From: an uncultured Flavobacteriaceae bacterium
GTDB lineage: Bacteria; Bacteroidota; Bacteroidia; Flavobacteriales; Flavobacteriaceae
NCBI GenBank assembly: GCA_943842245.1
Contig: CALTAJ010000001.1
Location: 124,001 to 188,000 of the forward strand
Direction of reading: 5' to 3'
DNA: 64,000 nt
The position numbers were made by a program, and so were the translations under genes. The notes below the pieces were generated by a model that was not told the DNA's origin, made no database searches, and saw only the letters and a list, made by a program, of their open reading frames with translations. Within the stretch, counting starts at the first letter, position 1; every line of letters begins with the position of its first letter. Positions 53,052 through 55,170 of the stretch are shown here, piece by piece.

Positions 53052-53222
53052 TCATGATACTATATTAAAACTTTTAAGTTCCTCATCTAAAAGATATTCT
53101 ATCTCGATTGTTTGACATCAAACTTCACAGTCCTCAATATAATTTTGTAAATCATTTCATTTTTCTAACAACATTGAAATTTCCTCCCAACAAAAAGGAC
53201 ATTGAAAAAAGTGTTCAATCAT
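53052..53222 (-). pseudogene. CPXCG-motif zinc-finger microprotein gene interrupted by two in-frame TGA codons
   Basis: Read through, this 57-codon frame gives a typical CPXCG small Cys-rich protein: MIEHFFQCPFCWEEISMLLE, then NDLQNYIEDCEV and CQTIEIEYLLDEEL. TGA occurs at codon 22 (53157-53159) and codon 35 (53118-53120), then a final TGA at 53052-53054. Spacing to the family pattern CPxC...YIEDCEVCC is kept exactly, with no indel. Codon 35 lies where relatives have Cys, a presumed zinc ligand; codon 22 is where they have a polar residue. It overlaps the preceding small membrane-protein gene by eight bases. Likely a recent pseudogene; recoding is possible but unproven. Confidence 0.7.
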
Positions 53223-53391
53223 TTGACTTTTTTGATTTTAGGTACATTAAATAATATGAAATGAGCATTACTACAGAGCCTAAAACTCCAATTCTACCCA
53301 AGAGACCATCACTTAATGAAATAAATATTCCAATAAAAAAAACAGAGAGGGCATTATCGATTAAAGAATCTTTTTGCTTTTTAAAATCCAT
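53215..53391 (-). CDS. 58-residue small membrane protein
   Basis: The ORF starts MDFKKQKDSLIDNALSVFFI and has two hydrophobic helices (about 14-28 and 34-50) joined by a short loop, with a Lys-rich C-terminus. The amphipathic charged start and intact two-helix form indicate a real gene. I do not recognise the family. Its end overlaps the CPXCG gene start by eight bases, so the two were once translationally coupled. If the zinc-finger gene is dead, this upstream gene still appears intact. It lies in the large gap between the sortilin-like and retinol-saturase-like genes. Confidence 0.6.
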   Translation of the reverse strand: MDFKKQKDSLIDNALSVFFIGIFISLSDGLLGRIGVLGSVVMLISYYLMYLKSKKSND

Positions 53392-53580: not shown

Positions 53581-55170
53581 ATGGCTCAGTCCTACAAAAA
53601 ATCTCCCGAATTAGCTGAATCATACGATGCTATTTTAATTGGTACAGGTATTGGTTGCCTTTGTGCTGGTGCACTACTCTCAAAATTAGGGAAAAAAGTA
53701 TTGCTGCTTGAACGACATTATACCGCAGGAGGTTTTACACATGTTTTTAAAAGAAAAGGATTTGAATGGGATGTTGGTATTCATTATATTGGAGAAGTCC
53801 AAAGACCAAATAGTGTATTGAGAAAATTGTTTGATTATGTATCCGATAATCAATTGAAATGGGATGATATGGGAGAAATATATGATCGTATTATTTTGGG
53901 CAATAAGCAATATGATTTTGTCAAAGGTGTAGACAATTTTAAGTCTAAAATGCACGAATATTTCCCAAATGAAAAAGAGGCAATTGAAAAATATATCAAT
54001 CTGATTTTCGCAGCTAATAAATCAGCTTCCAAATTTTATATGGATAAAGCTTTACCCCGATTTATTAGTGCAACACTGGGAATTTTTATGAGGAAAAGGT
54101 ATTTAAAATACTCTGATAGAACAACCTACGATGTCTTAAGTGAACTTACTGAAGACAAAACACTAATTAAAGTATTATGCGGACAATATGGGGACTATGG
54201 TCTTCCTCCAAAACAAAGTAGTTTTGCGATGCATGCTTCAGTTGTAAAACATTATATGCAAGGTGGAAGTGTTCCTGCTAAAGGCTCTTCACAAATTTTA
54301 AATACAATTGAAAAAGTAATTGAAAAAGCTGGTGGGACAATTTTAGTTCTCGCCGAGGTTGACAAAATCATTATAGAAAAAAACAAAGCTAAAGGTGTCA
54401 AGCTGATCGACGGAAATAATTTATATGCAGATATTGTAATTAGCGGTACAGGTGTGTTCAATACATTTGAAAATTTAATTTCTTCTAATTTAATTCATGG
54501 CCATAAATTAAATGAAAAATTAAAAAAAGTAAACCCATCTGTAGGATATGGATGTCTTTACATTGGACTGAATGGATCTCCTGAAGATTTAAAACTACCA
54601 AAAACAAATTTTTGGATTTATCCTGAAGACCTAGATCACGACGGATGTGTAGATCGCTTTTTAAATAATAATAAAACAGAATTCCCGTTAGTTTATATTT
54701 CTTTTCCTGCTTCTAAATTTTCTGATTGGAATGAACGCTACCCTGGAAAAAGTACAATAGATATTATTACGATGATTCCTTATGAAGCCTTTGCAAAATG
54801 GGATGGAACAACTTGGAAAAAACGTGGTGAAGATTACGAAATCAAAAAAGAAGAATTTGCTCAACGACTTCTCAAACATTTATTCAAACAATTACCTCAA
54901 TTAAAAGGAAAAGTTGAGTTTTATGAATTTTCCACTCCACTTACAGCAAGACACTTTTCAAATTATAAACAAGGAGCGCTTTATGGAATTGACCATAATC
55001 CTAAACGTTTTCGTCAAAATTTTTTAAGACCAAAAACAAAAATTAAAGGTTTGTACTTAACAGGTCAAGATATTGTGACAGCAGGTGTAGGAGCTGCTTT
55101 ATTTTCAGGTTTGATTACAGCTAGTGCAATTACTGGAGTTAATTTTATTAAAAAAATATTTAACCAATGA
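53581..55170 (+). CDS. FAD-dependent oxidoreductase, retinol saturase / CrtI-like
   Basis: A 529-residue flavoprotein of the phytoene-desaturase superfamily. It opens with the FAD motif AILIGTGIGCLCAGALLSKLG and LLLERHYTAGGFTHVFKRKG, then WDVGIHYIGEVQ, all typical of all-trans-retinol 13,14-reductase-like proteins; PPKQSSFAMHASVVKHYMQGG and the C-terminal GLYLTGQDIVTAGVGAALFSG are also conserved. It probably saturates or desaturates a carotenoid/retinoid or other polyene. This is of interest in a marine flavobacterium, where retinal for proteorhodopsin would be a substrate relative, but no rhodopsin gene is seen here. It overlaps the next gene by four bases. Confidence 0.88.
   Translation: MAQSYKKSPELAESYDAILIGTGIGCLCAGALLSKLGKKVLLLERHYTAGGFTHVFKRKGFEWDVGIHYIGEVQRPNSVLRKLFDYVSDNQLKWDDMGEIYDRIILGNKQYDFVKGVDNFKSKMHEYFPNEKEAIEKYINLIFAANKSASKFYMDKALPRFISATLGIFMRKRYLKYSDRTTYDVLSELTEDKTLIKVLCGQYGDYGLPPKQSSFAMHASVVKHYMQGGSVPAKGSSQILNTIEKVIEKAGGTILVLAEVDKIIIEKNKAKGVKLIDGNNLYADIVISGTGVFNTFENLISSNLIHGHKLNEKLKKVNPSVGYGCLYIGLNGSPEDLKLPKTNFWIYPEDLDHDGCVDRFLNNNKTEFPLVYISFPASKFSDWNERYPGKSTIDIITMIPYEAFAKWDGTTWKKRGEDYEIKKEEFAQRLLKHLFKQLPQLKGKVEFYEFSTPLTARHFSNYKQGALYGIDHNPKRFRQNFLRPKTKIKGLYLTGQDIVTAGVGAALFSGLITASAITGVNFIKKIFNQ

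Follow-up and report, generated by a model that had tools for sequence, protein, structure and literature searches.

A CPXCG Zinc-Ribbon Gene with Two In-Frame TGA Codons in a Flavobacteriaceae Genome: A Very Probable Pseudogene with TGA at a Conserved Cysteine Position

When a short bacterial frame carries TGA at the position where its relatives have a conserved cysteine, is the gene dead, or is the codon read as an amino acid? We address this question for a CPXCG frame (Pfam family PF14255) in a 64,000-nucleotide stretch of the genome of an uncultured Flavobacteriaceae bacterium (hereafter, the window). This frame is interrupted at codons 22 and 35 (Table 1) and then contains no stop until codon 57, which is TGA too. 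The first-pass annotation had proposed either decay or recoding of TGA, for example as selenocysteine (Sec) at codon 35. Our analysis supports the first half of this proposal, on the basis of stops private to this copy, the loss of Pro38, and the fact that 20 of the 38 genomes of the genus, many of them incomplete, yielded no match to the gene; the selenocysteine half did not hold up, as we found no Sec genes, no convincing SECIS, and no TGA-bearing homologue. We thus consider the locus to be, very probably, a recently inactivated pseudogene.

The interrupted frame and its family

The product of the frame, with X placed at both stops, matches the PF14255 (Cys_rich_CPXG) profile at 49.7 bits (cut-off 25.2), which is far beyond chance, and aligns with six intact relatives from the genus at 63 to 75% identity with zero internal gaps, 27 of its 56 residues being common to all six. 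The CPxCW and CEV-x-C motifs are retained, the family spacing is exact, and there is no indel, in agreement with the first-pass annotation, which had described a frame with normal motifs and spacing interrupted by TGA at codons 22 and 35. That annotation had overlooked that the terminator is a third TGA and that Pro38 is replaced by Thr. Thus, the window copy shares with the PF14255 family its profile match, its gap-free alignment and both motifs, but differs from it in having two internal TGA codons, one of them at the cysteine of the second knuckle, and in the loss of Pro38. No uninterrupted frame spans the two CxxC knuckles, and because of the TGA codons at positions 22 and 35, we regard this as a broken copy and not as a working member of the family.

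Table 1. Coordinates of the features discussed in the text (positions in the window).
Feature	Position	Strand	Remarks
Broken CPXCG zinc-ribbon gene (PF14255)	53052..53222	-	57 codons including terminal TGA; ATG at 53222-53220
In-frame TGA, codon 22	53157..53159	-	Ser in each of 16 other copies from the genus
In-frame TGA, codon 35	53118..53120	-	Cys in 98/98 intact copies examined (90 distinct)
Codon 38, Thr	53109..53111	-	Pro in 98/98 intact copies examined (90 distinct)
Natural terminator TGA, codon 57	53052..53054	-	L002 and L003 also terminate with TGA at this codon
Intact 58-aa ORF	53215..53391	-	8-base overlap with the start of the broken gene; no Pfam match

For L101, an intact relative, the predicted structure (mean pLDDT 83.2, pTM 0.55) has four strands and places a CxxC between the first pair and the second. 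A Foldseek search with this model returned nothing at E 0.001 or better (the best hit being the ZitP zinc finger at E 0.93), a sequence search of the PDB with the intact relative gave at best a thioredoxin at E 0.11, NCBIfam has no family for the relative's protein, and among titles and the openings of abstracts we found no literature on the CPXCG family. A zinc-ribbon fold is suggested for the family by its paired CxxC motifs and by the four strands predicted, and not by a solved relative. Since neither structure nor sequence led to a solved relative, the zinc-ligand role of Cys35 is one that we infer.

In the pseudogene reading, a 56-residue CPXCG zinc-ribbon gene, the second in a small overlapping pair, would have been lost on this lineage through two nonsense substitutions. 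Translation would stop at codon 22 and yield a 21-residue peptide with one CxxC, lacking the second metal-binding knuckle, such that no working protein would be made. The gene would then appear to be dispensable, its decay to be recent, and the 21-residue peptide to be inert.

Codons 22, 35 and 38 among relatives

Searching 60 genomes at E 0.001 yielded matches in 20 (the window's own genome is included in both counts), and internal stops were found in the window copy only. The L020 match is cut by a contig end and was left out, so that 18 copies (L002-L019) were compared, all of which have Cys35, Cys36 and Pro38, and none of which has a stop earlier than codon 50. The same three residues are present in 80/80 of the best 80 of at least 553 relatives from named genomes, again with no stop before codon 50 (0/80). 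Pooling these two sets gives 98 copies (some genomes occur in both; 90 sequences are distinct), and TGA at codon 35 occurs in 0/98 of them. The patterns used for the relative scan lay within the first 16 residues and thus did not select against copies with TGA at codon 35. Similarly, of the 84 matches obtained across 395 genomes of the order, the 83 other than the window copy are free of internal stops. Intact relatives from the genus have Cys at codon 35 and Ser at codon 22, consistent with the cysteine and the polar residue that the first-pass annotation had assigned to relatives at these positions, and the comparison with close relatives that it had called for leaves the window copy as the only one with stops, the relatives compared being intact. 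Pro38, too, is lost in the window copy alone among the copies examined.

We also counted private changes at those sites among codons 1 to 53 on which the rest of the subfamily agrees: the window copy has six (codons 22, 23, 35, 38, 40 and 45), two of them stops, against 0 to 3 in each of the ten others. With the stops masked, a two-ratio codon model assigns a higher ratio to the window branch (p = 0.036; p = 0.82 against neutrality), and the intact copy L010 behaves alike (p = 0.029). When all 18 tips of the codon-model tree were tested in the same way, L106 gave p = 0.001 towards stronger constraint, on a fitted branch that is implausibly long. As L010, which is intact, and L106 also give low p values, we attach little weight to the branch test taken by itself, though the loss of Pro38 does support relaxed constraint. 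The chance that both internal stops are TGA is 0.036 to 0.065 if nonsense changes follow a neutral spectrum derived from five intact relatives, which we take as mild evidence for something special at this locus, outweighed by the rest.

Taking these data together, the locus resembles bacterial nonsense pseudogenes in its private stops, its change at an invariant site and the frequency with which the gene is not found in relatives, but differs from them in that it carries no indel yet and both stops are TGA. The points that speak against the pseudogene reading are the lack of a frameshift or deletion, the identity of the two stops, the 27 of 56 residues still shared with all six relatives, the weak branch test, and the representation of the species by one strain. 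The support for it comes from the private stops, the third change at the otherwise invariant Pro38, and the lack of Sec components in the assembly.

The main rival, which we consider improbable, is a sequencing or assembly error, in which case the gene would be intact in the organism and the consensus would carry at least two incorrect bases. This is favored by an assembly in 4 contigs, a read type that is not stated, and the availability of one genome per species. It would, however, require base errors to have arisen independently at two sites some 40 bases apart, beside the changed Pro38, and errors of this kind did not come to light elsewhere: a scan of the window and ten 20-kb stretches of the same genome (264 kb) for frames in which an in-frame stop is flanked on either side by at least 50 open codons gave 2 candidates in the window and 25 in the ten stretches, 6 of the latter at TGA, and judged by eye, these are either adjacent genes that share a frame or frames that lack coding character, with no further gene recognized as split by an in-frame stop.

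Decoding of TGA in this genome

TGA terminates 12/49 ORFs of at least 100 codons in the window and 31/168 ORFs in the ten other 20-kb stretches, and the assembly contains a match to the release factor RF2 profile at 462.7 bits (cut-off 370). We therefore reject a genome-wide code change, which the first-pass annotation had likewise put aside. TGA also acts as a stop in the CPXCG gene itself, because the terminator at codon 57 is TGA, as it is at the matching codon of L002 and L003, which are near-identical to each other. L004 and L010 also terminate at TGA, one codon earlier, and the terminators of L005 to L009 and L011 are TAA or TAG.

TGA is the leakiest of the stop codons. Partial readthrough by a near-cognate or suppressor tRNA, producing a little full-length protein, would fit with a frame that is otherwise kept and with both stops being TGA. 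We nevertheless consider it highly unlikely, as ARAGORN names a tRNA at 35 of the 36 tRNA matches in the assembly (it names none at the weakest), with six of thirty loci covered through the flanks of other loci examined, the tRNA-Trp anticodon is CCA, and a UCA anticodon is absent among the tRNAs at these 36 matches. In addition, readthrough twice in one short gene would probably be very inefficient, the metal site would require Cys at codon 35 or use of the neighboring Cys36, and Pro38 has been lost as well. Less probable still is that UGA is decoded at both codons 22 and 35 by an as yet unseen kind of context-dependent readthrough that dispenses with the known Sec genes, yielding a full-length variant of the zinc ribbon; if true, such recoding would show UGA decoding without these genes.

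Finally, the locus could encode selenocysteine at codon 35, together with some other decoding at codon 22, a reading to which we give next to no weight. What speaks for it is that TGA stands for a Cys of a CxxC pair, this Cys/Sec pairing being the usual selenoprotein criterion (PMC13188914). The same paper describes filters for new selenoproteins that require both a bSECIS and TGA-bearing homologues, neither of which the CPXCG locus offers, there being no TGA-bearing homologue among the 98 copies and the 83 other matches in the order. Furthermore, codon 22 is a Ser position and the TGA at codon 57 is the terminator. The fold following codon 35 gives no help either: in the 49 bases from this TGA, a stem of 6 bp closes a 3-base loop (-3.4 kcal/mol, z 0.82), and 159/200 shuffles fold at least as well, so that the SECIS-like hairpin that the first-pass annotation had suggested looking for just after 53118 is not there in any convincing form.

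The machinery is likewise missing from the assembly (2.08 Mb, 4 contigs, 89.86% complete). SelA has no match in this 89.86% complete assembly; the same search gave matches in 2/14 control genomes (E. coli and M. jannaschii). The eight tRNA-Sec matches in the assembly all fall short of the gathering score (41.3 at best, against 47) and are ordinary tRNAs according to ARAGORN, and weak matches of this kind occur in 14/14 control genomes, with matches above the cut-off in 5. No SelB match exceeds the cut-off: the six in the assembly score at best 183.6 against 242.25 and cover the first half of the profile only, as would be expected of GTPase domains from other factors (controls: matches in 14/14, above the cut-off in 2). 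The single SelD match (58.8 bits, cut-off 125) falls in an ORF that is ThiL, matching the ThiL profile at 299 bits (cut-off 184.15), and in the controls SelD matches were found in 14/14 genomes and exceeded the cut-off in 2. At about 90% completeness, any one Sec gene could be missing by chance, but the absence of all of them is unlikely. The joint absence that the first-pass annotation had named as speaking against recoding is therefore what we find, within the limits of an assembly that is 89.86% complete. This is in line with a 2006 survey, in which the Sec trait was undetected among the Bacteroidetes then sequenced (PMC1794560); a further study lists an orphan SelD in one single-cell genome from the Bacteroidetes (PMC5029168).

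Among the 38 genomes of the genus, the SelA profile PF03841 is matched above the cut-off in 8, at 30 to 43 bits. We read one of these eight by eye (L198, from G003), a 405-aa protein with an apparent Tat-type signal in which only profile positions 115-268 are matched, and judged it not to be SelA.

The locus therefore resembles bacterial Cys/Sec selenoproteins in having TGA at a CxxC cysteine, but differs from them in the lack of Sec genes, of a convincing SECIS and of a TGA-bearing homologue, and in its second TGA at a Ser position. We view it as a small but clear example of a false selenoprotein candidate, which is rejected on three grounds (the gene content of the genome, the second TGA at a non-Cys site, and the loss of an otherwise invariant neighbor) and has little import beyond annotation. 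That the 21-residue N-terminal peptide with its one CxxC knuckle is itself functional is scarcely credible, as the family sequence is kept across the first 20 codons but the second cysteine motif is kept in 98/98 intact copies examined.

Gene distribution and neighborhood

The CPXCG gene is matched at E 0.001 in 18/38 genomes of the genus, many of which are incomplete (54 to 98%), and was not found at this threshold in the other 20; among the seven genomes that are at least 90% complete, it is present in 2 and was not found in 5. These absences suggest that the gene is readily lost. At E = 10, a search for decay remnants gave matches in 5 further genomes of the genus, at 8 to 15 bits, which we take as chance. 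The genus copies L002-L017 fall into two subfamilies, one of the MIEHFF/MIEYFF type and the other of the MEEHFF...MLFD type, and none of the 38 genomes has two matches above the E 0.001 threshold.

Rfam identifies one tRNA in the window and nothing else. A neighboring gene encodes an oxidoreductase (53581-55170), of which 8 other genomes have orthologues (64 to 89% identity). In a tblastn comparison of 58 loci with 1.5 kb flanks, the CPXCG gene stands beside the oxidoreductase in G005 only and lies about 5 kb from it in G008; synteny with the oxidoreductase is of no use for dating. In G014, the oxidoreductase is represented by two short, separate matching pieces only (L038; G014:C16, 3526-3774), which may be a decayed copy.

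The 58-aa ORF that overlaps the start of the broken gene has the look of a small membrane protein. In L002 and L003, the homologue of this ORF directly follows the intact CPXCG gene, such that the gene order is swapped, with the ORF upstream of the CPXCG gene in the window and its homologue downstream in G014 and G024 (L101, 3001-3502). In G014, the TGA terminator of the CPXCG gene overlaps the ATG of the following gene, and a third small Cys-bearing ORF follows the 58-aa homologue, each ORF overlapping the next. The CPXCG start of L010 coincides with the end of a hydrophobic frame, and by eye, short hydrophobic frames that differ from one another also lie immediately upstream of the CPXCG start in other relatives.
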